This document shows, one piece after another, positions 1 through 43,746 of a stretch of DNA of 64,000 bases; the first letter of the stretch is position 1; each line of letters opens with the position of its first letter. Source of the DNA: an uncultured Aliiroseovarius sp. (GTDB lineage Bacteria; Pseudomonadota; Alphaproteobacteria; Rhodobacterales; Rhodobacteraceae). The notes under the pieces were generated by a model, which was not told where the DNA came from, searched no databases, and saw only the letters and a list, made by a program, of their open reading frames with translations. Where the stretch lies: NCBI RefSeq assembly GCF_947497285.1, contig NZ_CANMFT010000002.1:248001-312000 (forward strand), in the 5' to 3' direction. The position numbers and the translations under genes are program-made.

Positions 1-590
1 GTCAAGGCGCCGGCTACATCGCGCCGGGCGATTATCCGATGTCGATCCTGGTGATCGGCGGCTCGCAAGGGGCGCGTGCCTTGTCGGACGCTGTTCCCGC
101 CGCCATCGCGGCCCTGCCTGAACATCTGCACCGCCATGTTTCGGTCAGCCATCAGGCGCGCGACGAGGATCTGGAGCGGGTGACAGCCTTCTATGACGCG
201 CATGGCATTCGGGCCGACGTGCAGCCGTTTTTCACCGACATTCCGCGCCGCATGTCCGAAGCGCAGCTGGTGATCAGCCGGGCAGGGGCATCGTCTGTTG
301 CCGATATCTCGGTCATTGGTCGCCCGTCCATTCTGGTGCCCTATCCCCATGCGACCGAAGACCACCAGACGGCGAATGCCCGTGGTCTGGTCGATGCGGG
401 TGCGGCGATTTTGATCCCGGAAAGCCGGCTTGATCCGGCAATGCTGTGTGAACAGATCGCGATGGTGCTGGAGCACCCTCAAGGCGCCGAACAGATGGCC
501 CGTGCGGCGCTGGCGCAGGGGCGTCCCGATGCCACGACCGCGCTTGTCGCACTGGTTGAGGAATTGACGGCGCACGCCCCTTCGGCGTAA
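1..590 (+). CDS. murG: MurG, 3' part of the gene (UDP-GlcNAc:lipid I transferase)
   Basis: C-terminal part of the glycosyltransferase that adds GlcNAc to lipid I to make lipid II on the cytoplasmic face of the inner membrane. The frame is open from the first bases of the window (codon start at base 3), so the gene is cut by the window edge and the ATG at 39 is internal. About 195 residues are visible. The motif GGSQGAR near the left edge and the later stretch [21 protein letters not shown] are the donor nucleotide-sugar binding features of MurG (GT28). murC follows after 51 bp on the same strand, as in dcw clusters. Family assignment is secure; the N-terminal half cannot be judged. Confidence 0.95.
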
Positions 591-641
591 CCCCGCACCA
601 CGAACACTTATCAAGCCGCCTGTTTTTTGGAAGGTCGATTT

Positions 642-2057: not shown

Positions 2058-2100
2058 AACCGGCCCTATCAACAGGTGATTGCTTGACCGAGTCCGACAT

Positions 2101-3306
2101 ATGAAACGACCAGAAGCAGCGCCGCTCAAGCGAAATCTAGGCCTTGGGCTGCTGACCATGTATGGCGTCGGCGTCATGGTCGGCGCAGGCATTTACGTGC
2201 TGGTCGGTGCGGTCGCGGCCGAAGCCGGGATCTGGGCGCCGTTGGCGTTTTTGATGGCGGGGCTGGTCGCGGCCCCTTCGGCCTTGTCTTATGCCGAACT
2301 CAGCTCGCGCATCCCCGAAGCCTCGGGCGAGGCCGCGTTCGTCGAAAAGGGGCTGAACAGCCATCTGCTGGCGGTGCTGATTGGGTTGGCGATCGTCGTC
2401 GCGGGTTCGGTGTCGGCGGCGGCGGTGCTGCGGGGCGGGGTGGGCTATTTGACCTCGATCGTCGATGTCCCGGCCGCTTGGGCGATTGTCGGTTTTGGCG
2501 TTGCCTTGGCAGGCGTGGCGGCGATTGGCGTGCTGGAAAGCCTGTCACTGGCCGCCCTGTTCACGGTGGTAGAGCTTTTGGGACTGGGCGCGGTGATCTG
2601 GGCGGGGTTTTCTGCACCCACGGTGGCGGATATCGCGACCTTGCCGCCGCCTTACTGGCCGGGTGTGGCCGGGGCTGCGGCGCTGGCGTTCTTTGCCTTT
2701 ATCGGGTTCGAAGACATTGTGAACATGGCCGAAGAAACCCGCGACCCCACCCGTATCGTGCCCCGCGCCATCCTGATTTCACTGGTGGTGACCACCGCAC
2801 TTTATGCGCTGGTGGCGCTGGCAGCGATCCGTGTCGTGCCGGTCGATGACCTTGCGGCCTCGGACCAGCCGCTGGTTCTGGTGTGGGAGGCAGGCTTCAC
2901 AACCACCCCTGTCGTATTGGGCGCGATTGCCGTCGTGGCGGCGCTGAACGGCGTACTGGCACAGATCGTCATGGCGGCACGTGTGTTGTTCGGGCTGGGT
3001 CGCCGCGAACCTATGCTGGGCCTGTTTTACCGCGCGCATCCCAAGTTCGGCACGCCGGTGCTGGCGACGTTTCTGGTCGGTCTGGCCGTTATCGGGGCTG
3101 CCCTTGCGCTGCCCGTCGCGGATCTGGCCGAGGTCACCTCGGGCGTGTTGCTGGTGGTCTTCGCCGTCGTGAATATCGCGCTGATCGCGTTGAAGCGCAA
3201 AGCGCCCGACGCCCCCTTCCGCACTGCACGCTGGGTGCCGTGGGTGGGTTTGTTTGCAGCGCTCGTGGCGCTGGCGGCGTCGTTTCTGCCAACGGTGGTA
3301 TCATGA
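2101..3306 (+). CDS. APC-superfamily amino acid permease
   Basis: Predicted inner-membrane transporter of 401 residues with about 12 hydrophobic segments. The start resembles the APC family: GLGLLTMYGVGVMVGAGIYVL in TM1 is the unwound-helix substrate motif, and GFEDIVNMAEETRDP in the middle is the conserved APC loop. The substrate cannot be read from sequence; amino acids or amines are usual. ATG 2101 is preferred over the upstream TTG at 2080 because the family signature begins just after it. The gene sits inside the dcw cluster between murC and murB and its stop overlaps the next start (ATGA), so it looks translationally coupled to the DUF2484 genes. A permease here is not part of the canonical cluster. 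Confidence 0.85.
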   Translation: MKRPEAAPLKRNLGLGLLTMYGVGVMVGAGIYVLVGAVAAEAGIWAPLAFLMAGLVAAPSALSYAELSSRIPEASGEAAFVEKGLNSHLLAVLIGLAIVVAGSVSAAAVLRGGVGYLTSIVDVPAAWAIVGFGVALAGVAAIGVLESLSLAALFTVVELLGLGAVIWAGFSAPTVADIATLPPPYWPGVAGAAALAFFAFIGFEDIVNMAEETRDPTRIVPRAILISLVVTTALYALVALAAIRVVPVDDLAASDQPLVLVWEAGFTTTPVVLGAIAVVAALNGVLAQIVMAARVLFGLGRREPMLGLFYRAHPKFGTPVLATFLVGLAVIGAALALPVADLAEVTSGVLLVVFAVVNIALIALKRKAPDAPFRTARWVPWVGLFAALVALAASFLPTVVS

Positions 3307-31863: not shown

Positions 31864-33321
31864 ATGATTTCTTCTGATGATTTTATCAATGTCTACCGTT
31901 CGCGGAACTTCGAAGCCTATCAGGCCTGCCTTCGCGTTCTGGCGCATAATGAAATCGCGGGCCAGGACTTGCGCAAGCCTGTCAACGTCTCGTGGCACCG
32001 CGATGACGATATCCCGCCACTGGCCTGGCTGTGCAAATCCACGCCCGACAAAACACAATTCGTGCTGGGATCTCAGGTCGAAAAGTTCGGCGACACCTTC
32101 TTCGAGGGCGTTTGGGATGGTCCGGTCCATAAAGCGATGTTCCGCGAAAGTGCAAATTTCTTCGGCACGGGCTGTTCGTTGCTGCGCAACATTCTTTTCA
32201 CACCGCCGCGTCACTGTTTCGATGCACTGTATGTGGCAACCTGCGATGGGGTCAGCTATGTGACCAACAGCATGGCGCTGGCGATCCGGTTGGCCCTGCC
32301 TGACATCGACGATGAGGCGCTGCGTGATCTTGCGATCGTTCTGAAAAAGCACAGTGACGACAGTTCTGCCTTGGGTGCAGATCTGGCCCAGACATTTGCC
32401 ACCAAGCTCGACGGGTGGGCCTTTTACCGGGTGATGTATCACAATTTCTCTTTGTCCGCCGATGGTGTGCCGCTCAGACGGTTTCACCTTGAACAAAAGC
32501 CAAACCTGACCTTCGCAACGTATCGCAGAAACCTTCGACGTGTGGCCAAGCGGCTATCACGCAATGCCAAGTCCAGGCGGCGCAAATTTCCCTTGGGCGT
32601 CGTTTCGACGATCTCGAACGGCTACGATTCCACAGCCTGCACAGCGATTGCGAAGGCTGCGGGATGCAAACTGGCTCATACAATAACCGGAGACGTCAGG
32701 GGGCGGTCCGATTCCGGGGAAGAAGTGGGCGCCCAGCTTGGCATCAAGGTCAAGGCACACCGCCATATCCTGAAATCCAGCGACCGTTCCCTGTCGCTTC
32801 ACCTTGATGAAGAGGCGCTTGCCTATGCCTCGGAATTCCTCGCCACATCTGGCTTTGGTGACGATGTCGTCTATGCCTCATTCGAACGCGACATTCAGAA
32901 TTGCGTTGTGTTCGAAGGGTCATTTGGCGACGGCATCTGGGCAAAGAAGCTGCGCACGGGACCGGGTCTTCCGACGGGGTTGCGCACGGCCAAAAGCAAA
33001 AACGAGTTTCACCTGCGCAATGGCACAATTTTTGTTCCCTTGCCCGTGGTCGGCGCGAAATTCGTACAGGCCATTCGCCGTGTGTTGCGCCAGCCGGATA
33101 TGAAACCTTTCTTCCTTGACGTTCCCTATGACCGCCCCATTCCGCGGCGAATTGTCGAAGAGGCAGGCGGGAAACGAGAAGCCTTTGGCCAACGCAAAGG
33201 TGCCACGGCGCCCACTCCGCAGAACCTGGAACCCCAGCTTGCAGGCGCGTTCAGAACTGTCATGAAGCGATACCAGTCGCTTGTTTCGTATCTCGACGCA
33301 GATACCCCCAAGCGCGGATAA
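31864..33321 (+). CDS. Asparagine-synthetase-like protein with PP-loop variant
   Basis: Protein of 485 residues. The C-terminal half resembles the synthetase domain of AsnB-type enzymes: a PP-loop-like STISNGYDSTACTAIAKAAG (canonical SGGxDS is SNGYDS here, near residue 255), and later an FEGSFGDGIW motif in the place of the AsnB GDGxDE region. The N-terminal 230 residues keep an AsnB-like beta pattern (LYVATCDGVSYVTNSMALAI) but no N-terminal Cys for glutamine hydrolysis. An adenylate-forming amide-bond role is likely; the substrate is unknown. It stands alone on the + strand, with small ORFs divergent from it, just outside the tRNA-Asn island. Confidence 0.6.
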   Translation: MISSDDFINVYRSRNFEAYQACLRVLAHNEIAGQDLRKPVNVSWHRDDDIPPLAWLCKSTPDKTQFVLGSQVEKFGDTFFEGVWDGPVHKAMFRESANFFGTGCSLLRNILFTPPRHCFDALYVATCDGVSYVTNSMALAIRLALPDIDDEALRDLAIVLKKHSDDSSALGADLAQTFATKLDGWAFYRVMYHNFSLSADGVPLRRFHLEQKPNLTFATYRRNLRRVAKRLSRNAKSRRRKFPLGVVSTISNGYDSTACTAIAKAAGCKLAHTITGDVRGRSDSGEEVGAQLGIKVKAHRHILKSSDRSLSLHLDEEALAYASEFLATSGFGDDVVYASFERDIQNCVVFEGSFGDGIWAKKLRTGPGLPTGLRTAKSKNEFHLRNGTIFVPLPVVGAKFVQAIRRVLRQPDMKPFFLDVPYDRPIPRRIVEEAGGKREAFGQRKGATAPTPQNLEPQLAGAFRTVMKRYQSLVSYLDADTPKRG

Positions 33322-33440
33322 GCGCCTTTCTTACATTCGCAAGTCGTCCGAAAGAGGGGCTCTTCACCCAGCCAACACAACGCAGTCGGTCGGTGGCGTG
33401 CGAAGCGCGGCTGACTCAGAGGCATCAATCTGATCCGGTA

Positions 33441-33476
33441 AAGAAAAAGGGCCTAGCGAAAAATCGCTAAGCCCTT
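33441..33476 (-). terminator. Original tRNA-Asn terminator, now displaced
   Basis: On the minus strand GGGCTTAGCGA and TCGCTAGGCCC form an 11-bp stem with one mismatch and a TTTT loop, followed by TTTTTCTTT. It lies 7 bases beyond the 48-bp tRNA 3' fragment, so it was most likely the terminator of the tRNA-Asn gene before the island inserted. Confidence 0.8.
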
Positions 33477-33482
33477 GAATTC

Positions 33483-33530
33483 TTTGGCTCCGGCGGTAGG
33501 GATCGAACCTACGACCAATTGATTAACAGT
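33483..33530 (-). repeat. Left attachment repeat (3' part of tRNA-Asn)
   Basis: A 48-bp sequence identical to 42688-42735 and covering the tRNA-Asn 3' half from the anticodon loop to the CCA end. Only the 3' portion is present, so it is not a functional tRNA. It is the distal direct repeat made by integration. Confidence 0.93.
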
Positions 33531-33648
33531 ATCCCACGGGGGTTCTAACGGCAGATAGCGCAAGCTAGCGACAGCATACAAAGTCGTGTAAAAACAATGA
33601 CTTGAAGCCGTTGCGTGATAATGGCAGAATGTCCTAGGCAATCCTAGA

Positions 33649-33670
33649 GTGCTAGCATGGTGCTAGCATG
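33649..33670 (+). repeat. Tandem GTGCTAGCATG repeat, likely integrase arm sites
   Basis: Two perfect adjacent copies of GTGCTAGCATG lie 17 bases before the integrase start and about 120 bases inside the left repeat. GCTAGCAT occurs again at 42605 near the other end. Tandem sites near both att ends match the layout of arm-type integrase sites; they may also control int. Confidence 0.5.
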
Positions 33671-33686
33671 TGCATAGGAGAACCAC

Positions 33687-34973
33687 ATGCCGAAGCTCAC
33701 GAAGACCTACATCGACAAGGTGCAACAGCCCGCCTCGGGATACGAGATTCATTGGGACGACAAGGTGGGCGGATACGGCCACCGCGTCACCGCCAGCGGG
33801 GTGCGCGCGTTCGTCGCCCAGGGACGGGTGAACGGGAAAGCGGTCATCATCACCATCGGTCGTTATGGCCTCTACACCGAGGCGCAGGCGCGGGAGAAGG
33901 CGCAGAGCCTGCTTCAGCAGATGCGCGAGGGGATCGACCCGAGGGCGGTGAAGAAGCAGGCCGAGGCCGAAAGCGTCACGCTCAAGGAATGCTTCGACAG
34001 CTATCTAGCTCGGCCCGGCAAGCTCAAGGAGAGCACGAAGGACTGGTATCGGTTCTTCATCGAGAAGACCTTCAAGGACTGGGCCGACATGCCTGTGGTC
34101 AACATCACCCGCGACATGGTGAAGACCCGCCACGCTGAGCTGGTCAAGAACGGCCTCAAGGGGAAGAAGCGGAAGGGCGGGGCACCGGGCAGCGCGAACA
34201 GTGCGATGGTCGTCCTTCGCATCATTATGAACTACGCCGCCGACGAGCATACCTTGCCTGATGGCACGCCGCTGATCCCGCACAACCCGGTCGCCGCGAT
34301 GAAGCGTCATTGGGCACCGGCGGGTGATCGGACCGACCGATACGTCCCATTCGACAAGGTGGGCGAGGTCTGGAATGCGCTGCACGACGCCCGCCTGACC
34401 GCGCGGAACCGCGATGCGCTGGCCGGGGTGAATTTCGTGCTGTTCCTGATGACCACAGGTTGCCGCCGATCCGAGGCCGCGCGTCTGCGGTGGAGCGACG
34501 TTCACATCGACAAGGACGACCCCGCCAAGTCGTATTGGTTCCTCGGCGACCGAAAGCAGGGCAAGCCGATCATGCTGCCGCTCTCAACCGCAACGACGAA
34601 GGTGCTTGAGGCCTGCGAGAAGGTGGACGGGAACGACCATGTGTTCCCGAGCCGTGGTAAGGCCGGTCACATCACCGACCCCCGCGCGGTGCTGGACGAG
34701 GTGGACAAGGTGGCGGGGCGTATCGTCGGGGCGCACGGGCTTCGCAAGACGCTCTCGAACATTTCGCAGCGGGAATGCCGCATTGAGAAGTTCCGCACCG
34801 ACCTGCTGATTGGGCACAAGCCCGCGCAGGAGGACGTGACGAGCCGGGCGTATCTTGACCTGACCGACCTCCGTTGGCTGCACCCGGAGATCGAGCAGAT
34901 CGGCGCGTGGATCGAGGAAAAGGGGCTGGTCGCCGCCGGGAAGAACGTAGTGGCGCTCCCCGCTCGCGCGTAG
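33687..34973 (+). CDS. int: Tyrosine recombinase / integrase
   Basis: Site-specific recombinase of 428 residues. An N-terminal arm-binding domain of the DUF4102 type (about residues 1-95) is followed by a SAM-like core-binding domain (about 97-190) and the catalytic domain with Arg260 (TGCRRSE), His350-x-x-Arg353 (HGLRK), His377 (LIGHK) and nucleophile Tyr389 (SRAYLD). The set is complete, so the protein should be active. It lies just inside the left repeat and points into the element; the intact tRNA-Asn is at the opposite end. Confidence 0.97.
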   Translation: MPKLTKTYIDKVQQPASGYEIHWDDKVGGYGHRVTASGVRAFVAQGRVNGKAVIITIGRYGLYTEAQAREKAQSLLQQMREGIDPRAVKKQAEAESVTLKECFDSYLARPGKLKESTKDWYRFFIEKTFKDWADMPVVNITRDMVKTRHAELVKNGLKGKKRKGGAPGSANSAMVVLRIIMNYAADEHTLPDGTPLIPHNPVAAMKRHWAPAGDRTDRYVPFDKVGEVWNALHDARLTARNRDALAGVNFVLFLMTTGCRRSEAARLRWSDVHIDKDDPAKSYWFLGDRKQGKPIMLPLSTATTKVLEACEKVDGNDHVFPSRGKAGHITDPRAVLDEVDKVAGRIVGAHGLRKTLSNISQRECRIEKFRTDLLIGHKPAQEDVTSRAYLDLTDLRWLHPEIEQIGAWIEEKGLVAAGKNVVALPARA

Positions 34974-35076
34974 CCCCCGAAATTTGCCGGCTGTAGCCGC
35001 AGGTCACGCTTGGCCGGGGGTAGGGTGGCTCCCGGCGCGGGATCGCGGTGTAGCCAAGAATTAGCGAGGCAACACG

Positions 35077-35412
35077 TTACCTCGACTTGGAACGGTGCTT
35101 TTTCAGCCACTTTCGGGCGGAACCCACGCCACCAAATGTCGGGGATGCTGCCTTTTCCAAAGGCTTGACTTGCTCAGGGTGTGCGATTGCCCATTCAGCA
35201 AAGCTATCGGACGGATTCCCATCGCGCCGCTTCACATATCCGACGCGATAGCTGACACGATGACACTCGGCGCAATAGCCAGTCGAAACGTAGCGCTCAT
35301 CTATGTGACCATGTTTGCAGGGTTCGCCCGTATAGAAGCGTTTCAGCCCTTTCGACCGCGCTTCCTCTCTGCTGATTAGTTCCATTCGCTCTACAATCCT
35401 CGCCGTTTTCAT
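35077..35412 (-). CDS. Small Cys/His zinc-binding phage-type protein
   Basis: Protein of 111 residues with a compact metal-binding pattern: Cys32, His34/His36, Cys47 and Cys50 in GEPCKHGH...YCAECHR, followed by a basic C-terminus (KKHRSKSR). The pattern occurs in many phage and island proteins, some of them HNH-like; no complete HNH catalytic motif is seen. It is on the minus strand, opposite to int, and divergent from the HTH gene. ATG 35412 lacks a clear ribosome site; Met10 is an alternative. Confidence 0.65.
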   Translation of the reverse strand: MKTARIVERMELISREEARSKGLKRFYTGEPCKHGHIDERYVSTGYCAECHRVSYRVGYVKRRDGNPSDSFAEWAIAHPEQVKPLEKAASPTFGGVGSARKWLKKHRSKSR

Positions 35413-35674
35413 TGATGGGTGCTAAGTGACCTATATCAATGTGCAAATTGTGGCCTGAGAATGGCAATTCGCGCTTGCCGACTGTGCGACAGCTAAGCTA
35501 GTTTTGCCATACATCGTGCCGGAGACGGGGCACGCGAAGAATACTGTCTCCGAGAGCCGGTGAAGCAAGGGTAGCCAGTCCCCCAGGGCATCGGACACTG
35601 CCAGATCGGCATTCGGCATGATCTGGTGCTGGTGACCACAGCGCAAGCCAACACTTGTCGCCGGAGTCACTTAT

Positions 35675-35932
35675 ATGGCCCACAAAGAACCGACCTTCGA
35701 GGAGCTGTGCGCCCAGTTCGCATACGTCCCTCGCAACCGCCCACTCTCCGCCGCTGAGGTGTCCGAACTGATCGGGGTTCACCCCGTGACAGTGGACCAA
35801 TGGCGTCTGCGGGGCACCGGCCCGCGCTACTTCAACCCGAAGGGCACCCGGCGGTGCTGGTATGCTGAGCCTGACGTGCTCGCGTGGTTGGCATCGGGCG
35901 AGAAGCGCAGCACCAGCGACACCGCTGTCTGA
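35675..35932 (+). CDS. Excisionase/AlpA-like helix-turn-helix protein
   Basis: DNA-binding protein of 85 residues. LSAAEVSELIGVHPVTVDQWRLRGTGPRYFNP is a MerR/Xis winged-helix of the helix_turn_helix_17 type, followed by the typical wing and DVLAWLASG end. In integrative elements such proteins act as excisionases or activators of int. It starts the leftmost + strand run that leads into the DUF3987 gene, with only small gaps. The preceding 262 bases (35413-35674) contain no other gene and should hold its promoter. Confidence 0.85.
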   Translation: MAHKEPTFEELCAQFAYVPRNRPLSAAEVSELIGVHPVTVDQWRLRGTGPRYFNPKGTRRCWYAEPDVLAWLASGEKRSTSDTAV

Positions 35933-35947
35933 GCCGACCCGTTTACC

Positions 35948-36121
35948 ATGAACAAGTCGGATCACCGCCAATACGCGCAACGCAGCAAGGGTGCGCCCAC
36001 CTCGGGCACGCCCGCAAACCAGCACGGTCATAGCCGTGCCCACGAAAAAGGGGACCGGCGCGACCCGATCCCCTCAGTCATCAGGACAAGTAGCAGAATG
36101 CAGATGAAAGGAACCTGCTGA
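35948..36121 (+). CDS. Possible 57-residue ORF, translationally coupled
   Basis: Open frame that begins 15 bases after the HTH stop and ends with TGATG overlapping the DUF3987 start. The product is polar (MNKSDHRQYAQRSKGAP...), without a known motif. The arrangement suggests coupling of translation into the larger gene; no strong ribosome site is present. It could instead be untranslated leader. Confidence 0.35.
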   Translation: MNKSDHRQYAQRSKGAPTSGTPANQHGHSRAHEKGDRRDPIPSVIRTSSRMQMKGTC

Positions 36122-37785
36122 TGAGCAGTATGGGACAGGCCGCTGAGAGCGGCAACGAAGGCTTGCACCTCGATACGACCGGCGACACCGACTGGGCGAC
36201 GTATCAGCCTCCCGGCAACTCCTGGGACTTGGGAACGGGGCTGAACTTGCTTGGCATCGCCCGGCAGGCGCGGCAGGCGATTGCGGTTGCTGCACCGGAA
36301 GCCCCCGAACTGACCCCGGAGCAGGAAGCGGAAGCACGCAAGAAGGCACGGGCGTCCATCGGGATCTTCTGGGACGACGGGGCGCACGCTGCACCACGGC
36401 GGCGCAAGGTGACCACGCTGCGCCCGCCCACGCCCGCGCCACTGGACTGGCCGCCGGGGTTCGCCGGTGAAATCGCCCGCTACATGCACGGCGCTGCGCT
36501 GCGTCCGGTGAAGGAAGTGGCGGTCGTCGGGACGCTCGGTCTGTTGGCTGGCATTTGCGGTCGTCAGTGGCATATCCCTGAATCGGGTCTCAACCTGTAT
36601 CTGGTCCTCGTCGCTCGGTCTGCCATTGGTAAGGAAGCAATGCACAGCGGCATCAGCAAGATCGTTGCGACGTGCCGGAAGATGGACCCGCACATTCGGG
36701 AGTGCGCTGACTTCACCGAGTATGCGTCTGGGCCTGCCCTGATTAAGGCGCTCGTCAACAACCCTTGCTTCGTCAACGTCAGCGGCGAGCTTGGCAGGAA
36801 GTTCAAGCAACTGGCCGAGGACAGCCGCAACGGCCCCCTGCAATCGCTCCGCACCCAGTGGACCAACCTCTATGCGAAGTCCGCCCCGACCTCGGTGGCC
36901 GGGGGCCTCAGCTACAGCGCTACCGACAACAATGTCGAATCCATCTTCGGTGCCAGCTACAGCCTTGTTGGCGAAACCACGCCCGGGACGTTCCTCGAAT
37001 CCCTCACCACGGGGATGATGGAAGACGGGTTCATGTCGAGGTTCACGATCATCGAGTATAGCGGCGAGCGACCGCCCAAGAACCTGTCGCCTGCCAAGGA
37101 GCCGCCGCATCAGCTCGTGCAGTCAGTGCTGAACCTCATGTCGATGTCGTCCCTGATGGAACAGCGGGACCTCTACCACCTCGTGCAGCGAACGCCAGCG
37201 GCGGCCGTGGAGCTGGAACTGTTCGATGCCGACGTGTGCGACCCTCTCATTGAGGCGTGCGGCAGCGACGAGTCACGCCGCCAGATGTGGAACCGGGCGG
37301 GCCTCAAGGTGCTGCGTATTGCAGCGCTGCTGGCGGTCGCTGACAGCTACGGCACGCGCGCACCGCTCATCACCCTCGCGCACGCGCGGTGGGCCATCAA
37401 CCTTGTGCTGCGCGACACGGCAGCCTTCACCAAGCGGCTTGATGGTGGCGATGTTGGCAGCGGTGACGATGCACGGGAGCGCAAGCTGGTCGGTATGCTC
37501 ACGGAATACCTGCTCAACGAGGTGCCGGAGAGCTACAAGGTGCCTGACTCCATGCGGCAGAACAGCATTGTCCCGCGGAACTACCTGCAAGTGAGAACGG
37601 CCAAGGCCGCTGCCTTCTATAACCACAAGCTGGGCGCAACCCGCGCACTGGAAGAGTGCATCGCTTCTATGATTGGCAACGGCTACCTTATGGAAGTTGC
37701 CAAGGACAAGGTAGTTGATGCCTACGGCTTTCACGGTAAAGCGTTTCGCGTTATTCGCCTCCCGGACTATGACCACATGAACTAG
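36121..37785 (+). CDS. DUF3987 (YfjI-like) helicase/primase-associated protein
   Basis: Protein of 554 residues. The centre matches DUF3987: VGTLGLLAGICGRQWHIPESGLNLYLVLVARSAIGKEAM, where the ATP-loop is degenerate (ARSAIGKEA, about residues 165-172, lacking the first Gly and with Glu in place of Ser/Thr). The following VSGELGRKFKQLAEDSR, TPGTFLESLTTGMMEDGFMSRF and GLKVLRIAALLAVADSY also fit that family, found in satellites and islands as a replication ATPase. The C-terminal 100 residues may be a winged helix. An AT-rich iteron-like region directly follows, consistent with a replication role; activity is uncertain. Confidence 0.8.
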   Translation: MSSMGQAAESGNEGLHLDTTGDTDWATYQPPGNSWDLGTGLNLLGIARQARQAIAVAAPEAPELTPEQEAEARKKARASIGIFWDDGAHAAPRRRKVTTLRPPTPAPLDWPPGFAGEIARYMHGAALRPVKEVAVVGTLGLLAGICGRQWHIPESGLNLYLVLVARSAIGKEAMHSGISKIVATCRKMDPHIRECADFTEYASGPALIKALVNNPCFVNVSGELGRKFKQLAEDSRNGPLQSLRTQWTNLYAKSAPTSVAGGLSYSATDNNVESIFGASYSLVGETTPGTFLESLTTGMMEDGFMSRFTIIEYSGERPPKNLSPAKEPPHQLVQSVLNLMSMSSLMEQRDLYHLVQRTPAAAVELELFDADVCDPLIEACGSDESRRQMWNRAGLKVLRIAALLAVADSYGTRAPLITLAHARWAINLVLRDTAAFTKRLDGGDVGSGDDARERKLVGMLTEYLLNEVPESYKVPDSMRQNSIVPRNYLQVRTAKAAAFYNHKLGATRALEECIASMIGNGYLMEVAKDKVVDAYGFHGKAFRVIRLPDYDHMN

Positions 37786-37800
37786 CTCTGCTGCCAGCCG

Positions 37801-37988
37801 CAGTAATTATTACCGTGGCTGGCTAATTTGAATCGGGAAGGGAAACAAACACTTACCTATAAAATTACTCAAATTACTATATTACCATTGGTTATGCTGT
37901 TCTCTCCATTACATAGGGTGGCCTCTGCCTTACGAGCGGTAAAGGGTATAAGAGTAATGCAGTAATGCTGCTAATTTGGTAATTTCGG
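37801..37988 (+). repeat. AT-rich iteron-like region, candidate replication origin
   Basis: The 333 bases after the DUF3987 gene carry no gene but hold repeated RGTAAT/ATTACY hexamers: AGTAATTATTACC at 37802; three near-tandem 9-mers AAATTACTC, AAATTACTA, TATTACCAT at 37862-37888; two tandem AGTAATGC at 37953-37968; and GGTAATTT at 37979. Sets on the left and right are inverted relative to each other. A short inverted repeat GCATAT-N5-ATATGC lies near 38005. The AT content contrasts with the neighbours. Origin function is inferred. Confidence 0.5.
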
Positions 37989-38118
37989 TCAGTTCAGCCG
38001 ACCCGCATATTCCGTATATGCCCGCCAGCATTTGCTAAACGGGCGTAAACAGGCGGGAATGGGTCAGGTCGGCATGTGGTTATCGGGAGCCGCCTAGCCG
38101 GTTGCTAGCCTCGAACAG

Positions 38119-39207
38119 TCATTCGCCCGCTTCACCCTCGTCCGCGTCATCGTCTGGTGCGTCGTTTGCCTTGTCCTCGATCAGTAGCTGTGTGGCAGCC
38201 TTGAGCGTGCGCATCTCTTCGACGTTCTCGGTGATCGTATTGATGGCTTCAGCTACCGCATCGTCCAACTCCTCGTCATCTGCGGGCTCGGGCGGGGGCA
38301 ACATATCCACCTCACCGCCTTTGGACGTGAACCGAAACATCTTTTCGATGGACTTCTTGAGCGCGTTCTCAACGTCGCCTGCAATGCGCGCGCCGATCTT
38401 CTCTTTGACCAGTTCGAGGGCGTCTTGAACGCCACCATCCTCGACACTCTTGCGCCGCGCGAGGAGCACTCGCTCGACCTCAGCATCCGCCACCTTACGC
38501 ATTTTCCAGTCTTGGAGAGTATGCGCAATCTCCATGGACGATTTCACCGTGGAAGCAATTTGCTTCATAATTAGGGCGATGATGGTCGCCACAGTGAGAG
38601 TCGTTCCAAGGACGATAATCAGTGAGCCTGTGGTCGCCCCCTTTACTTCAACATCCTCTGGCCGCTCACCTGCCGCCATCGCCAAGCCACGAGAGATATC
38701 ATACCATTCGGCGGACCACTTTTTGAGCTGGGTCACGTTTTCGATCTCGACAGCATCCTTGAAGCGGACGCGAACCGTCACCTTGTCGGATGCCTCGTAG
38801 TCCGGTTCGCCTGTGATGCCGACTGCGGATAGCGACTGACGCGTCTGCTTGAATTGTTGGAGTGCGCTGTCAAGGCGCTGCTTGGCCTTGCGAATGTCAG
38901 CGGCGGCACTGGCTGGATCGTAGTTGCCTTCCTTCACGGTGCGTTCAACGAAGCGCCAGCCCTTCTCGCCGAGCAGGTCGCCGACTTCCATGTCGTCCAA
39001 GAGGTCAGTCTGTTGATAGCTCAATTGCGATACGGGCATGTCGAGCAGGGCTTGCTGCACGGCGTCCAGGTGCTCACGTAGTGGCACCTTGTTCCCGTTG
39101 GTCGCATTTTGCTCCATCGAACTAGCCAACTGTTCATAGACCGACATAGCCGGGTTCACGTGCTCGTTCATCCAATTGGCCAGCCCAACAAGCTCATTAA
39201 CGTCCAT
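38119..39207 (-). CDS. Uncharacterised membrane-anchored protein with acidic tail
   Basis: Protein of 362 residues that I do not recognise as a named family. About residues 1-130 are helical and polar, residues 143-190 form a beta/alpha region (VTVRVRFKDAVEIENVTQLKKWSAEWYDISRGLA), residues 193-215 are one transmembrane helix (SLIIVLGTTLTVATIIALIMKQI), then a long amphipathic helix, and the last 22 residues are almost all acidic. Proteins with a similar central stretch occur in variable regions of other genomes. It is the only larger gene on the minus strand of the island, in a cargo position; a defence role is possible but unproven. Confidence 0.6.
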   Translation of the reverse strand: MDVNELVGLANWMNEHVNPAMSVYEQLASSMEQNATNGNKVPLREHLDAVQQALLDMPVSQLSYQQTDLLDDMEVGDLLGEKGWRFVERTVKEGNYDPASAAADIRKAKQRLDSALQQFKQTRQSLSAVGITGEPDYEASDKVTVRVRFKDAVEIENVTQLKKWSAEWYDISRGLAMAAGERPEDVEVKGATTGSLIIVLGTTLTVATIIALIMKQIASTVKSSMEIAHTLQDWKMRKVADAEVERVLLARRKSVEDGGVQDALELVKEKIGARIAGDVENALKKSIEKMFRFTSKGGEVDMLPPPEPADDEELDDAVAEAINTITENVEEMRTLKAATQLLIEDKANDAPDDDADEGEAGE

Positions 39208-39433
39208 GCAATTCCCTCATCAATTTCGTGCTTCAATTCTCACTGTGAACAATTCGACTGGCAAGAGCCGCCCGCGAACCCCTGTTCCATTTAGCATCGA
39301 CGGTGACGACCGGGCTAGTCCAAAGGGAGTGACGGGAGCGCACACAGCGGCAGCACAGCCGCGCTCATGCAAACGGGCCGGGGTAGCACCCGGCCCGTGG
39401 CTGTTGTCGCTGTAGCCCGGCGGCTAGCGAGCG

Positions 39434-39736
39434 CTACTCGGCAGCTATGGCCACACCTCCCTCCCGGCGAGCCTGTATAGCCTCGATCCGCTCCCGGAAG
39501 CTCGGGCTTGCCCATACCGCCTCCACCACCGGCTTGAGCGCCGCCAACCTGCGGGCGGGCTTGCACGCGGCCAGCGCGCGTATGCGCCCGGCCCGTGCCT
39601 GCGCCAGCAGCGCAGCACCATCCGCCGGGGCTGGTGTTGGCATGTCGGTGCGCCATTCCGCGCGAAGGTAGAGAGGCAGCGGTTTCGGGCGTGCCGGGCG
39701 GATGCTGCGCGGCTTCACTGTGGTCATGTCGTTCAT
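39434..39736 (-). CDS. Small hypothetical protein of the island
   Basis: Protein of 100 residues, rich in Arg, Ala and Pro, with no recognised domain. The start ATG 39736 is chosen because GGGGGAAG sits five bases upstream; ATG 39751 is also in frame but lacks that spacing. The sequence from about residue 45 (LLAQARAGRIRALAACK...AVWASPSFRERIEAIQARR) is predicted helical. It lies between the membrane protein and the divergent operon at 39951. Function unknown. Confidence 0.5.
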   Translation of the reverse strand: MNDMTTVKPRSIRPARPKPLPLYLRAEWRTDMPTPAPADGAALLAQARAGRIRALAACKPARRLAALKPVVEAVWASPSFRERIEAIQARREGGVAIAAE

Positions 39737-39826
39737 GTCTGCTTCCCCCATAAGTTACAGACACCCCAAGCCCGACACTTCACCCCGAGGGCGCAAGCGA
39801 AAAGTGCCGACAGGCTCGACCCACTT

Positions 39827-39857
39827 ACTTGGAATATGGGGCATTTCGTATCCAAGT
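39827..39857. promoter_or_regulatory. Inverted repeat, candidate operator
   Basis: ACTTGGA-N17-TCCAAGT is a perfect 7-bp inverted repeat centred in the 199-bp gap between divergent genes (39434-39736 minus and 39951 plus). Position fits an operator or promoter element for the unknown operon; no regulator is assigned. Confidence 0.4.
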
Positions 39858-39950
39858 GCATGATTTCGTTGCTGAACTTCGCGAAGAACAGGTAGCGTCC
39901 TAGCCTATGGGGAGCCGCAACAGGCTTCCCTCAGGCATCAAGAGGACAAC

Positions 39951-40694
39951 ATGGCAGACGTTGATACGAGGGTTCCGCTGAGCCTTCACCCCGACAACAT
40001 CACATCTATGAGCGACGTGGACGACGATACGCGCGTCTTCGTCAATCCCGCCGCAGAGGCGCTGGAGGCGGCCCACACCTACCTAGGCTCGATCTATGAC
40101 GTTCGGGAGGCCGCGTTTTCCGACCCGACGTTGACCGAGCCTGCCGCGCTGCTCAAGACCGACGACCACGCAATGGCGAAGCTGGAGGCCGTCACGCGCA
40201 AGCTCGACGGCACACTTGCCGCGATGGGCAAGACCATCAAGGCCTACGAGGCGCAACTGGTCGCCCCAGTGAAGGAGAAGGCTGGAGCGGTCGTCAGCAC
40301 CGAAATCCGGGCGCACCTGAAGGTCGCCCCGAACCGTATCGACCTCGTGCGGCAGGCGATCAAGAACGGCGACGACGAGGTGGCATGTGCTGCACTTGGC
40401 GGGCCTGCGATGCTGTCGGGCCTGACGCCCGAAATCCACAGCGTCCTCCTGCGCGAGTATCACGAAGTGCGGCAGCCAGTCGTGGCGAAGCGCGTCCGCG
40501 CGATGACCGCTGCCCGCGACTACCTCGAAATCAACGGACCTCGCGTCCTGAAAGAGGCGATCCGCGCGGTGGGCGGTGTCCAAGTCCCCATCCCCGGCCC
40601 GGACGGCAAGACCGTCGGTTTCCGCACCGAAGGACCGGATGCCTACCGGCGGAAACGCAACGCCTCCGCCAAAGTCTACCGGAAGCACGCCTGA
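39951..40694 (+). CDS. Unknown island protein, first gene of operon
   Basis: Protein of 247 residues, no recognised family. Mostly helical; notable parts are DDHAMAKLEAVTRKLDGTLAAMGKTIKAYEAQLVAPVKEKAG, which looks like a coiled coil (about residues 70-112), and RVLKEAIRAVGGVQVPIPGPDGKTVGFRTEGPDAYRRKRNASAKVYRK at the basic C-terminus. GAGGA lies upstream of the ATG. It leads a run of tightly spaced genes to 42419. Structural or packaging roles would fit a satellite, but nothing in the sequence proves it. Confidence 0.65.
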   Translation: MADVDTRVPLSLHPDNITSMSDVDDDTRVFVNPAAEALEAAHTYLGSIYDVREAAFSDPTLTEPAALLKTDDHAMAKLEAVTRKLDGTLAAMGKTIKAYEAQLVAPVKEKAGAVVSTEIRAHLKVAPNRIDLVRQAIKNGDDEVACAALGGPAMLSGLTPEIHSVLLREYHEVRQPVVAKRVRAMTAARDYLEINGPRVLKEAIRAVGGVQVPIPGPDGKTVGFRTEGPDAYRRKRNASAKVYRKHA

Positions 40695-40714
40695 CCCCTG
40701 AACCGAAACTGTTG

Positions 40715-41197
40715 ATGCAGGTGCCAATGGCAGACGTAATCAAACCTAGCTGGATGGAAGGCTTCGTGCCTGATCCTGCCCCGCCCGGCGGTCGCTGGCC
40801 CAAGGGGGTCAGCGGCAACCCTGCCGGACGCCCGAAGGGATCGCTCAGCAAGAGCGACAAGATCGCCCGCGCTCTGAACGAGGAAGGTCTGGACGTTGTG
40901 CGCGTCGTGCTGGACGCGGCAAAGGCTGGCGATATGACGGCCTGTGGTCATGTCCTCAACCGCATCGCGCCAAACCTGCGCAGCAAGTCGCAGACGGTCG
41001 AGTTCGACTTCGACCCCGAAGCGCCGATGACGAAGCAGATCGAGGCGGTGCTGGCCGGTGTCGCTGCCGGTCAGGTGCCCCCGGACGTGGGGCAGCAGAT
41101 CATTTCCGCCATCGGCACGTTGAACGAAGCCCGCCTGACCGAGGAACTGGCGCAGGAGCTGGAAGCGCTGAAACGAGACCGCGAGGGGGGCCGATGA
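40715..41197 (+). CDS. DUF5681-containing phage-type protein
   Basis: Protein of 160 residues. The N-terminal RWPKGVSGNPAGRPKGS (about residues 27-43) is the DUF5681 motif, usually found in small phage proteins next to terminase genes. The remainder is helical (SKSDKIARALNEEGLDVVRVV... ; EELAQELEALKRDREGG). Two in-frame ATGs, 40715 and 40727, are possible; the longer reading is given. No terminase is adjacent here, which is unusual. Stop overlaps the next start (ATGA). Confidence 0.75.
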   Translation: MQVPMADVIKPSWMEGFVPDPAPPGGRWPKGVSGNPAGRPKGSLSKSDKIARALNEEGLDVVRVVLDAAKAGDMTACGHVLNRIAPNLRSKSQTVEFDFDPEAPMTKQIEAVLAGVAAGQVPPDVGQQIISAIGTLNEARLTEELAQELEALKRDREGGR

Positions 41198-41550
41198 GCT
41201 ACATCGAGACCAAACGGAACCAAGTGCATGTCGGCAGACCGCTGGCGACGGATACGGTTGTGGCCACATTCCTGCACGGCAGCACCGGGCCGCGCCGCCT
41301 GCTCTGCGTCCAGCCGCTCGCCAACTACCAGCGCGCCGTCAACTGGGCGCTGTCGATGGCAGACTACATGGCCGGTCCAATCGAACTGCTACCCTACGAG
41401 AGCGAGGAAGCGCTGGAACACGCGATCTTCATGTCCGAGGTCCACAACCTCACCTTTGCATCCGACGACCCCGAGGTGCGGCGGGATGCCCGTGAGCTGT
41501 TCCTGTCGCTGGCGGATTGGCCGACCATCAGGGAGCGGAGAAAGCAATGA
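41194..41550 (+). CDS. Unknown island protein, 118 residues
   Basis: No recognised family. Mixed alpha/beta composition with GSTGPRRLLCVQPLANYQRAVNWALSMADYM near the centre and a polar helical C-terminus. Starts inside the DUF5681 stop (ATGA) and overlaps the following gene the same way, so translation is coupled. Function unknown. Confidence 0.6.
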   Translation: MSYIETKRNQVHVGRPLATDTVVATFLHGSTGPRRLLCVQPLANYQRAVNWALSMADYMAGPIELLPYESEEALEHAIFMSEVHNLTFASDDPEVRRDARELFLSLADWPTIRERRKQ

Positions 41551-41822
41551 GACGACCCGCACCGAGCATTCCATTCTCAAACGCACGACCTGTCGAATAT
41601 GACCACAGTGACGGTGGCGCCATCACCTATGCCAACGGGCGGGCCTATCGCCGCGAGACCTCGCGCCACGACCCAGACAACACCATTACGCCCGACGAGC
41701 AGAAGGTGCTTCGCCAGCACCAGTTGGAGGCGGCCCAAGATCGGCAAGCCCGCAGTGACGCGAACCTCGCTGCCGCGTTGCGCCTCGGTGAAGCGTTGCG
41801 CGTGCTGAAGGGCGAGGGTTGA
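41547..41822 (+). CDS. Unknown island protein, 91 residues
   Basis: Small polar protein. The N-terminus is Pro/Arg-rich (RRPAPSIPFSNARPVEYDH) and the C-terminal half is a single predicted amphipathic helix (PDEQKVLRQHQLEAAQDRQARSDANLAAALRLGEALRVL). Starts in an ATGA overlap with the previous gene. No recognised family. Confidence 0.55.
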   Translation: MRRPAPSIPFSNARPVEYDHSDGGAITYANGRAYRRETSRHDPDNTITPDEQKVLRQHQLEAAQDRQARSDANLAAALRLGEALRVLKGEG

Positions 41823-41826
41823 CCAC

Positions 41827-42054
41827 ATGCCAAGCGCCCGCCACCTCCTCCGTCAGGCCAAGACGCTGAAGGATGCGCGTGACAACCATCCTATCGCGCG
41901 GTTCGGGACACCCGAGTTCGAGGCGGAGTTCCGGGACTCGGTTGAAGCGAACAACCTCGACCGCACCGACATGTTCGGGGAGAACGGCACGGGCGGGGTG
42001 CTGGCCTGCCTCAAGCGGTGGGCGCGCGATGAGGTATGGCGCTTGTGGCGATGA
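41827..42054 (+). CDS. Unknown island protein, 75 residues
   Basis: Small protein starting four bases after the previous stop and overlapping the next gene. It has two helical segments and a Trp-rich end (CLKRWARDEVWRLWR). No recognised family; its place in the operon is the main support. Confidence 0.5.
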   Translation: MPSARHLLRQAKTLKDARDNHPIARFGTPEFEAEFRDSVEANNLDRTDMFGENGTGGVLACLKRWARDEVWRLWR

Positions 42055-42419
42055 CGGACGAGCCAGAGTGGCTGGTGCGCTGGCACCGGGGCGAGCCGCC
42101 GCTACAGCCGCCCCCACAGCCGCAGGCCGCACCGGGCCAAGGGGGTAAGGGCGGCACCCGCAAAGCCCGCGCTGCAAACGGCGCTGGTAGGGAGGCCTCG
42201 GGGTTCAGGGAACCGAGGTTTGAGGCTTGGCGCTTCGACGGATGCAAGCGACGGGAACCTGTCCTCGACCTTGACCACAACCCGCCGCGCGTCGTCCGCA
42301 TGGTCGGCTGGCGCGTGTGCATGAAGTGCTCGACGCGATTCTGGTCTGACGATGTGGTCAGGGTGAGGATGTGCGACGAGTGCAAAGCGCCCCCGAAGGG
42401 GCACAGACGCAGCCAATAA
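42051..42419 (+). CDS. Zinc-ribbon protein, last gene of island operon
   Basis: Protein of 122 residues with a clear Cys4 zinc ribbon: Cys90-x2-Cys93 (WRVCMKCSTRFWS) and Cys108-x2-Cys111 (RMCDECKAP), preceded by a Pro/Gln/Gly-rich low-complexity stretch. ATG 42051 overlaps the previous stop. Such ribbons bind nucleic acid or partners; no more can be said. A hairpin terminator follows at 42542. Confidence 0.6.
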   Translation: MTDEPEWLVRWHRGEPPLQPPPQPQAAPGQGGKGGTRKARAANGAGREASGFREPRFEAWRFDGCKRREPVLDLDHNPPRVVRMVGWRVCMKCSTRFWSDDVVRVRMCDECKAPPKGHRRSQ

Positions 42420-42541
42420 CCGCGTGATTGGAGTGGCCCACGAGGACGCGGCCTTGCCAGCCGCACGTCCTTGAGGAAACCGACGGACGTAAAACCATCG
42501 GGACCAGTCGGCGGCGGTGTTCCTTCGCTGCCCGAACCGAC

Positions 42542-42578
42542 AAGCGCCTCGCAGCATGGGTTGCGGGGCGCTTTTGCT
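42542..42578 (+). terminator. Terminator of the island operon
   Basis: AAGCGCCTCGCA and TTGCGGGGCGCTT form a long stem with one bulge, followed by TTTT. It closes the plus-strand operon; the remaining 42420-42541 has no gene. Confidence 0.7.
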
Positions 42579-42591
42579 GACTGCGCTATGA

Positions 42592-42626
42592 CTCGTGCTA
42601 GGCGGCTAGCATAGCGCTAGTACGAG
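42592..42626. repeat. Right-end inverted repeat with GCTAGCAT
   Basis: CTCGTGCTAG and CTAGTACGAG form a 10-bp inverted repeat with one mismatch. Inside it GCTAGCAT (42605-42612) matches the tandem repeat next to int. The site is about 62 bases inside the right att repeat and is a candidate integrase arm site. Confidence 0.45.
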
Positions 42627-42637
42627 CCGCCAATAGC

Positions 42638-42660
42638 AAAACAGCCCCGCGAGAGGGGCC
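42638..42660 (-). terminator. Element-borne terminator for tRNA-Asn
   Basis: On the minus strand GCCCC-N6-GGGGC is followed by TGTTTT, 30 bases after the tRNA CCA end. It replaces the original terminator that is now beyond the left repeat. Confidence 0.6.
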
Positions 42661-42687
42661 GCTTAAGTGCTTGCTATAGCTGGTAAA

Positions 42688-42735
42688 TTTGGCTCCGGCG
42701 GTAGGGATCGAACCTACGACCAATTGATTAACAGT
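42688..42735 (-). repeat. Right attachment repeat (within intact tRNA-Asn)
   Basis: Identical over 48 bases to 33483-33530. It covers the tRNA 3' half through the anticodon loop plus two bases past the CCA, which would be the recombination core region. Confidence 0.93.
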
Positions 42736-42764
42736 CAACTGCTCTACCGCTGAGCTACGCCGGA
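42690..42764 (-). tRNA. tRNA-Asn (GTT)
   Basis: Minus-strand cloverleaf: acceptor TCCGGCG pairs with CGCCGGA, D arm GCTCAGCGGTAGAGC, anticodon loop CTGTTAA with GTT, T arm GTAGG-TTCGATC-CCTAC, discriminator G and encoded CCA. All stems pair. The gene is intact because the element supplies the 3' half; upstream (right side) is host sequence. Confidence 0.95.
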
Positions 42765-42822
42765 ACATGAGGGGCGATATAGCAAGAGTGATTCAGGGCC
42801 GCAAGAGGGCTTGATGTTTTTT

Positions 42823-43746
42823 TCACGCGATCCGCAGGAATTCTGCACGAGCGTCAAGCTGTGGCCTCGCGGCGACGATTTCGCGGGTGGCCAGATCGAT
42901 TAGATGGGCGAAGACGTTGCGTTCGGCTGCGGGGATCAGGGCCTTCGGCGTTTCGGTATAGATTGCCTTGGTCAGGGTGGGGATGGTCGCGGGGCGGCCG
43001 TCGGACAGAAGGTCAAGAATGTTGGCTTCGCGTGACTTTCGATGGCCAATCAGCCACGCGATGCGGGCGGCGGGCGTGTCGATCGCGGCGCCATGTGCCG
43101 GATAATAGATCCGGTCGCGTCGTTGGGCGAGCTTTTGGCACGATGACATGAAAGCCGTCAGGTCTCCATCCGGCGGTGAAACCAATGAGCTGGCCCATCC
43201 CATGATGTGATCTCCTGTAAAAACAGCGTCTTGTGCGGTAAAGCTCAGGTGGTTGGAAAAGTGTCCGGGGGTCCAGATGGCCTCAACCTGACACCCGCCT
43301 GCGGTAAAGATTTCCCCATCCGACAGGTAGATATCGGGCCGAAACGCGGCATCGACGCCTTCGCCACCAGATGCAAGGCCGCGTGCGACAAGCTCTGTCA
43401 TCACCGCACTGCGCCCTGCGACGGCGTCCCCGAAGGCATGCACTTTGGCACCGGTCACCTCTGATAACGGGCCGGCCAGCGGGGAGTGGTCCAGATGGGA
43501 ATGCGTCACCAGAATTTGCGTGATCCGTTCGCCGCGCTCGAGCCCATCCAGAAGGGCGCGCAGGTGGGTCTTGTCTGCGGGGCCGGGGTCAATGACGGCC
43601 ACGTCGCCTTCGCCCAGAACGAACGTATTGGTGCCCCAATAGGTCATGGGCGAGGGGTTCGGAGCTATAATCCGGCGGATGCCCGGTTCCAGCTGTGACA
43701 TCACCCCGGCGGGCGGGCGGTCTTCCAAAACGTGATCGTGTGCCAT
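42823..43746 (-). CDS. Metallo-beta-lactamase-fold hydrolase
   Basis: Protein of 307 residues. The metal-binding signature VTHSHLDHSPLA (HxHxDH) and later TPGHFSNHLSF, FTGDHIMGW and YPAHGAAI supply the usual His/Asp ligands. The C-terminal 90 residues are a winged-helix-like tail typical of the LACTB2-type group, whose members include nucleases and thioesterases. ATG 43746 (MAHDHVLED) is preferred; MSQLEPG further in is possible. Divergent from the histidine kinase with 88 bp between starts. Substrate unknown. Confidence 0.88.
   Translation of the reverse strand: MAHDHVLEDRPPAGVMSQLEPGIRRIIAPNPSPMTYWGTNTFVLGEGDVAVIDPGPADKTHLRALLDGLERGERITQILVTHSHLDHSPLAGPLSEVTGAKVHAFGDAVAGRSAVMTELVARGLASGGEGVDAAFRPDIYLSDGEIFTAGGCQVEAIWTPGHFSNHLSFTAQDAVFTGDHIMGWASSLVSPPDGDLTAFMSSCQKLAQRRDRIYYPAHGAAIDTPAARIAWLIGHRKSREANILDLLSDGRPATIPTLTKAIYTETPKALIPAAERNVFAHLIDLATREIVAARPQLDARAEFLRIA

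Follow-up and report, generated by a model that had tools for sequence, protein, structure and literature searches.

Organization of the element and its insertion site

We analyzed 64,000 nucleotides of DNA from an uncultured Aliiroseovarius sp. (positions 248,001 to 312,000 of contig NZ_CANMFT010000002.1; hereafter the window), in which an island of 9,205 bp lies between 48-bp direct repeats at a tRNA-Asn gene. The island encodes a tyrosine integrase, a helix-turn-helix (HTH) protein, a DUF3987 replicative helicase, a 362-amino acid (aa) cargo protein and a run of small proteins led by a 247-aa protein and a DUF5681 protein (Table 1). An initial annotation, made from the sequence alone, described it as a small satellite-like element that depends on a helper phage or other mobile element. 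The two repeats are perfect, as that annotation had it, and the tRNA-Asn gene is intact (GTT anticodon). Because this gene holds the right copy, the left copy is a 3′ fragment of it.

Table 1. Features of the element and its borders in the window.
Feature	Position	Strand	Basis or remark
Terminator hairpin left of attL	33447..33476	-	terminator scan
attL, 48-bp 3′ fragment of tRNA-Asn	33483..33530	.	perfect direct repeat
Tyrosine integrase, 428 aa	33687..34973	+	Pfam PF13356, PF00589; PHROG 1
Small Cys-containing protein, 111 aa	35077..35412	-	PHROG 1081 (unknown function), 1.5e-18
Element-specific block with three short perfect dyads, candidate control region	35515..35670	.	conservation
HTH protein, AlpA/excisionase-like, 85 aa	35675..35932	+	HTH_17; PHROG 66
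DUF3987 replicative helicase, 554 aa	36121..37785	+	Pfam; PHROG 3022
AT-rich intergenic region, candidate replication origin	37786..38118	.	lowest-GC 150-bp windows of the element, 0.38 near 37841
Cargo gene, 362 aa, one apparent hydrophobic segment	38119..39207	-	candidate anti-phage gene by slot
105-aa protein	39434..39751	-	84% identical in L102, 73% in L103, 64% in L137
247-aa hallmark protein, helical	39951..40694	+	defines the 22 family members
DUF5681 small-terminase-like protein, 156 aa	40727..41197	+	PF18932, 1.4e-9
118-aa cassette protein	41194..41550	+	aligned with ten relatives, 22-55% identity
Small cassette protein, 91 aa from its ATG	41547..41822	+	homologues in L102, L103, L105, L107, L108, L110, L137
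75-aa cassette protein	41827..42054	+	cluster of 9 members; 86% identical in L110
Cassette protein with C-terminal Cys pairs, 122 aa from its ATG	42051..42419	+	homologues in L102, L103, L105, L109, L110
Element-borne hairpin downstream of intact tRNA-Asn	42640..42660	-	read from sequence
attR, 48-bp repeat inside intact tRNA-Asn (42690-42764, -)	42688..42735	.	

The hairpin to the left of attL is probably the native terminator of the tRNA-Asn gene. Near-identical sequence lies directly 3′ of tRNA-Asn in two of six relatives compared within the genus (G305 and G306; here and below, G numbers denote genomes and L numbers loci), and the remaining four have a different sequence after this gene. 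In G305 the repeat has a single match and the tRNA-terminator sequence is uninterrupted, which is the form expected of an empty site. G306 carries a second copy of the repeat about 29 kb away and may therefore hold another island, which leaves G305 as the clean empty site. The island thus probably parts tRNA-Asn from its own terminator by 9.2 kb and supplies the element-borne hairpin instead, at a place where the related elements L102, L103 and L105 carry a hairpin of a different type. In L103, a window-like end to the left of attL (88% over 110 bp) is perhaps the trace of an earlier insertion.

A family of related elements

At least 22 loci belong to the same family: the window, L102-L112, L137, L229 and eight loci found through their helicase (Table 2). 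Of 394 genomes of the bacterial family, 10 matched the 247-aa protein; among them are the window's own and G154, where the match is weak and the other cassette genes are missing. G310 was added by searching 21 genus genomes (again with the window's own) at the DNA level. Only three of 385 genomes in a class-wide search were matched, namely the window's own, G424 and, weakly, G559. We also checked 66 loci brought in by the helicase, 53 from IMG/VR and 13 from a scan of 84,980 named species; outside the window's class, the survey covers only named species with a close helicase relative. The integrase, the 247-aa gene and the DUF5681 gene occur together in eight of the 66. One of the eight is from a Thiogranum metagenome-assembled genome (MAG), for which binning errors are possible. 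Croceibacterium ferulae SX2RGS8 and Sphingomonas colocasiae JCM 31229 are among the named carriers. The count leaves out G154 (L113, L114) and G559 (L230), whose 247-aa matches are weak and which lack the other cassette genes, as well as L129 (integrase and DUF5681 gene, no 247-aa match) and L125 and L126 (integrase only).

Table 2. Repeats and replication genes of family members. The loci L067 to L134 at the foot were found by their DUF3987 gene.
Member	Source	Exact repeat (bp)	att spacing (bp)	Replication gene
Window	uncultured Aliiroseovarius sp.	48	9205	DUF3987
L102		45	9578	DUF3987
L103		54	8918	AAA_25 with primase-type parts
L105	G254	49	9220	AAA_25 with primase-type parts
L107		50	9048	DUF5906 with NrS-1-type domain
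L108		46	9840	AAA_25 alone
L109		only 28-nt core searched	~16.4 kb	AAA_25 with primase-type parts
L110		20	8519	DUF3987
L112		48	9651	DUF3987
L137	IMG/VR			DUF3987
L229	G424	51	8304	AAA_25 alone
L067	IMG/VR			DUF3987
L124	Croceibacterium ferulae (Alphaproteobacteria, Sphingomonadales)	48	8712	DUF3987
L127	Sphingomonas	54	8126	DUF3987
L128	Sphingomonas	20	8242	DUF3987
L130	Sphingobium	20	8177	DUF3987
L131	Sphingobium	20	8258	DUF3987
L133	Sphingomonas			DUF3987
L134	Thiogranum MAG (Gammaproteobacteria genus)			DUF3987

The same gene order recurs across the 22 members: integrase, in some an HTH gene, a variable replication gene, a cargo slot, and a cassette led by the 247-aa and DUF5681 genes. 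Every one of them has a DUF5681 match; that of L104 is truncated and that of L137 broken. The relatives are not just fixed, degraded copies, since 18 have an integrase, 15 have att-type repeats and the tRNA genes at the cassette end differ (Asn, Arg, Met, Ser, Pro, Ala and Lys, with L137 left out). Four members are damaged or lack an integrase in the available stretch; none was found in L104, L106, L111 or the available part of L137. Fourteen of the 15 att-bounded members span 8.1-9.8 kb. L067, L133 and L134 have an integrase and no repeat pair in the stretch available; the sequences of L103 and L133 end before a whole tRNA gene, and the tRNA-Asn of L109 lies about 7 kb away. The elements are mosaic: relative to L110, identity reaches 95% for the window's DUF5681 protein and 86% for its 75-aa protein, but only 34% for its 247-aa protein.

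Related variants also exist. L129 (an Erythrobacter MAG, 12.5 kb) and L125 (Denitromonas ohlonensis, 8.3 kb) are att-bounded and share the integrase and helicase types; of the two, only L129 has a DUF5681 gene, and neither matched the 247-aa protein. L105 may also carry, at positions 1-3140, what remains of a second element in a tandem arrangement, as suggested by exact 44-55 bp repeats spaced about 10 kb and by an o127-like fragment.

Integration, regulation and replication

Ten of the window's proteins were searched in Pfam and PHROGs, and two small open reading frames (ORFs) in Pfam only. The integrase is complete, with Arm-DNA-bind_3 and Phage_integrase domains, and the element is integrated site-specifically between attL and attR with an integrase of its own. 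The assignment of the HTH protein as excisionase-like held up: it matches PHROG 66 ("excisionase and transcriptional regulator", 6.5e-7), with an HTH_17 score of 22.8 bits that falls below the 27-bit cut-off. Homologues were identified in L107, L108, L110, L137 and L229.

The DUF3987 protein gives the element a replication gene of its own (Pfam 8e-9; PHROG 3022 "DNA primase", 3e-133, over the C-terminal half of the profile). It is 57.6% identical to the primase-helicase of Pseudomonas phage PaMx25 (Queuovirinae by record). The best other match in 295 genomes of the bacterial family is 32% identical, and the helicase of L112, from a genome outside this sample, is 40% identical. Across PaMx25, NP1 and MMDA13 the helicase part of the primase-helicase is 50-58% identical to the window's protein; these are tailed phages with genomes of 58-64 kb, whereas the element has the helicase part only.

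The iteron-like DNA noted initially finds weak support in the window. The intergenic region behind the helicase gene is the lowest in GC of the element, but its repeat content is not exceptional: in 500 shuffles, the count of repeated 7-mers was reached by 47, that of 8-mers by 343 and that of 9-mers by 136. The same position is repeat-rich in five of 11 elements tested. In these five (L102, L103, L109, L110 and L229), short element-specific repeats about 260 bp after the replication gene are commoner than in shuffles, and they are candidate origins.

A 156-bp block ends just before the start codon of the HTH gene and is 95-97% identical in L103, L105 and L110. Despite this conservation, the HTH proteins of L103 and L105 are not matched by that of the window. 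A DNA search with the block matched seven of 394 family genomes (the window's own, G116 and G254 at high identity, and four with short weak matches), and it was also seen in G310 in the search of genus genomes. No match was found in phage or plasmid collections, and an exact 39-nt pattern from the block was not found in IMG/VR. It does not appear to be a coding gene, as the three codon positions differ to about the same extent in the one minus-strand ORF tested that overlaps it, nor a structured RNA (z-scores of -1.3 and -1.1 on the two strands); Rfam identified only tRNA in 33400-42900. The block is a candidate control region, the alternative being recent exchange between elements.

A small-terminase-like protein

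The initial annotation stated that transfer genes are lacking. For relaxases, no family was found at E < 0.1 in the ten proteins searched, but a packaging gene was overlooked: the DUF5681 protein resembles small terminases (TerS). In Vibrio phage 1.039.O, a DUF5681 relative is encoded directly before the large terminase (TerL), which is followed by the portal gene, and in Klebsiella phage VLCpiS13f a relative also directly precedes TerL. A scan of IMG/VR with an alignment of satellite DUF5681 proteins confirmed at least 111 loci, 80 of which were kept (L137 among them). A downstream ORF could be scored in 64 (start at -150 to +400 nt, or a long overlapping ORF); the other 16 have no scorable ORF. 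Pfam identified Terminase_6N in 34 of these ORFs and Terminase_3 in 29, counts for which the overlap was not reported. Among the IMG/VR matches listed, phmmer linkage to two annotated TerLs joins 54 of the 64, and 24 of the 54 begin within -30 to +10 nt. By comparison, a control with a crude gene caller placed only 4 of 515 other ORFs from these loci before TerL. Alignment of the satellite profile with TerL-adjacent phage proteins (13, hand-picked from 53 listed) gave an HHalign probability of 98.9% (E 4e-17) over 69 columns. In addition, a structural proteome table for a Salmonella phage includes a DUF5681 protein (PMC8954984). The homology and the gene context suggest that the DUF5681 protein of the element may act as TerS.

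DUF5681 genes are also present outside the family. Several have an integrase or replication gene nearby, a setting that would suit further satellites. Other small islands that combine a DUF5681 gene with an integrase or replication gene occur at 5947-8269 of L275 (G007), at 6639-11208 of L272 (G076) and in L273 (G036). No TerL was found in these three, and they are possibly further satellite families. In L271 (G176), the two genes after a DUF5681-like gene match peptidoglycan-binding, beta-lactamase-type and polysaccharide-lyase families; the two genes in the same place in L276 (G176) cluster with them.

The 247-aa protein

The AlphaFold2 model of the 247-aa protein is confident (pLDDT 91) and mostly helical. 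No match with E ≤ 0.001 was found in a fold search, and the protein has no sequence match in the PDB. Alpha-pore toxins head the PDB rows at E 0.08 or worse; we take these as chance matches between helical proteins.

Evidence for a probable phage satellite

The lack of capsid genes reported initially is borne out. No structural family and no large-terminase family was found at E < 0.1 in the ten proteins searched in Pfam and PHROGs, and the two remaining small ORFs have no Pfam match, so that profile search brought no hidden structural phage gene to light. Names of this kind occur in PHROGs only at chance level (0.28 for a tail assembly chaperone and, with the HTH protein, 0.36 for a terminase small subunit). 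The satellite-like reading of the initial annotation is strengthened by the TerS-like gene, the conserved family and the empty site.

We conclude that the element is probably an intact integrative phage satellite that redirects the packaging of a helper phage with its own small-terminase-like protein. The integrase and HTH protein would excise it from tRNA-Asn as a 9.2-kb circle, and the DUF3987 helicase would replicate it, with the AT-rich region 3′ of the helicase gene as the probable origin. Acting as a small terminase, the DUF5681 protein would bind satellite DNA and steer the TerL of the helper to pack it into helper-made heads, allowing transduction. The four small cassette proteins, like the 247-aa protein, may serve the same takeover, for example in head size, packaging specificity or control of the helper, and the cargo gene may shield the cell against rival phages. 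The sequences themselves show the integration, the family, the lack of any structural gene in the searches made, and the homology and genomic setting of DUF5681; excision, replication, TerS activity, transduction, defence and the helper proposed initially are inferred.

Several observations weigh against this interpretation. The homology of the DUF5681 protein to phage proteins covers only 69 columns, about its N-terminal half, and none of 56 Foldseek hits matches a small terminase at E ≤ 0.001 (model pLDDT 72). In 198 genomes of the bacterial family there are 21 DUF5681 matches outside the element family, and TerL lies directly downstream in only 3 of the 16 examined (L257, L258, L259, L266 and L268 were left out of this check). 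No copy of the 247-aa protein was found in the phage collection or in two pattern scans of IMG/VR; two IMG/VR contigs obtained by other routes do hold it. No helper was identified. Defence cargo is a minority finding (see below). The wider family strengthens the satellite interpretation, and the thin evidence for defence weakens only its cargo part.

Alternatives and relationship to known systems

The element resembles phage-inducible chromosomal minimalist islands (PICMIs) in its integrase, AlpA-type HTH protein (PF12728 in the PICMI model) and DUF3987 or DUF5906 replication gene, and in the absence of capsid genes. Its cargo slot beside the replication gene is similar to the PICMI prim-fis hotspot. 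The trio of int, alpA and prim is present, with alpA borderline given the HTH_17 score. In the PICMI report, fis integration is a hallmark and no terS, sid or ppi is reported (PMC10803314). Here the site is tRNA-Asn and a TerS-like protein is encoded, and for these reasons we do not assign the element to the PICMIs. It is also larger (9.2 kb, versus a PICMI average of 6.7 kb), and its TerS-like gene and conserved cassette are not reported for PICMIs. A minimal satellite of this type, in which headful concatemers are packed passively by a virulent helper and the DUF5681 protein is a DNA-binding regulator rather than a terminase, would fit the gene trio, the slot and a helicase close to that of PaMx25 and similar phages. 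We consider this unlikely, given the homology of the DUF5681 protein to neighbours of TerL, its place beside the 247-aa gene in 22 members, and the differences from PICMIs in terS and insertion site.

More improbable still is a phage-independent integrative element, such as a genomic or defence island that spreads through vesicles, competence or gene transfer agents. The lack of an identified helper would agree with it, as would a single Terminase_6N cluster in the window's genome (L231, G000:C2:176058-180797), with consecutive genes for TerL, portal, prohead protease and capsid, which we take to be perhaps a gene transfer agent cluster. The conserved TerS-like gene and the narrow size range of 14 of the 15 att-bounded members argue against such an element, as does its length of about 9 kb, roughly double what the best-known gene transfer agent particles carry. 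The Terminase_6N cluster was also considered as a helper prophage and rejected: the only DUF5681 match in the genome is that of the element, and no phage record listed has a capsid more than 48% identical to that of the cluster. There is only a slight chance that the element is a degraded prophage that has lost its structural genes. Its integrase, replication gene and TerS-like gene are phage-type, but the same order recurs in 22 members, among which the replication gene varies and the cassette stays constant; no structural remnant was found in Pfam or PHROGs, and searches of phages and IMG/VR gave no prophage that combines the cassette with structural genes.

Under the preferred interpretation, that of a satellite with its own packaging gene, the element is similar to phage-inducible chromosomal islands (PICIs) that encode a TerS. 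The small terminase of PICIs redirects helper packaging. By mechanism the element would be PICI-like in bringing its own small terminase, with a similar size, integration and replication gene; the likeness is one of logic. Unlike cf-PICIs, it has no capsid genes of its own detectable in Pfam or PHROGs. According to the PICMI paper, PICIs average 9.5 kb and are found in Firmicutes and Gammaproteobacteria, complete PICMIs were reported only from Vibrio, and 67 of 135 PICMI-like elements are in Vibrionaceae (PMC10803314). VEIMEs and tycheposons are cited there as chromosomal islands of marine bacteria that move by transduction, many of them possibly satellites (PMC10803314); we liken them to the element by this description only. 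In agreement with the initial annotation, no named family whose definition was compared fits fully. A literature search on satellites and PICIs in Rhodobacter, roseobacters, Rhodobacteraceae and Alphaproteobacteria, in which subscription journals were mostly uncovered, returned no title describing such a satellite.

The cargo slot

The cargo slot sits between the replication gene and the 247-aa gene. The window's 362-aa protein matches no family at E < 0.01 in Pfam, PHROGs or PADLOC. Relatives were identified in three other genomes of 275, and one is encoded on a Photobacterium plasmid (25% identity). In G272, from another genus, a 1,283-bp stretch comprising the gene and upstream DNA is 90% identical, and no other gene of the element family was found in the 20 kb around it.

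We scanned 18 cargo-type proteins against PADLOC, and four have strong matches. Three of these are in the slot: PDC-M34A in L107 (4e-50, beside a Swt1-like HEPN protein), a PtuA-like ATPase in L109 (8e-25) and a retron type VI reverse transcriptase in L112 (2e-92). The fourth is a DNA methyltransferase beside the integrase of L105. Matches are weak for L108 and L067, and the other 12 proteins, that of the window included, have none. No strong match was found for eight slot ORFs of the added loci (best 4e-4). Also present are a DndB-like protein beside the 247-aa gene of L111 and RiboL-PSP-type HEPN proteins in L108 and L128 (HEPN_RiboL-PSP Pfam match in L128). By its position in the slot, the window's cargo gene may be a defence gene.

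Flanking genes and other islands at the site

To the right of the element, synteny (MBL-fold and histidine-kinase genes) is kept in all six genus relatives; the left-hand genes lie beside the site only in G310, among the loci compared. A 485-aa ORF to the left of attL (31864-33321) has no counterpart in those loci of the relatives that were examined. In G309 (L118, 14.4 kb) and G308 (L119, about 18.5 kb), two copies of the same tRNA-Asn repeat enclose other islands, and the site is therefore a hotspot.

Implications

A fuller combined reading is possible, and we hold it as doubtful in its entirety: an undescribed class of satellite that packs itself with a DUF5681 small terminase, takes over the helper with a 247-aa protein of new fold (e.g., a scaffold or head-size switch), has a helicase from a lineage shared with PaMx25-like phages, receives the helper signal at the 156-bp block and carries a new single-gene anti-phage defence in the 362-aa protein. 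The authors of the PICMI study leave open how a helper phage switches on early satellite genes (PMC10803314). The sharply bounded block upstream of the HTH gene offers a concrete place for this question. If the DUF5681 protein acts as a small terminase, a function could be given to a family that Pfam lists as unknown. If the satellite interpretation is right, a satellite lineage with its own packaging gene would be present in Sphingomonadales and other bacteria.

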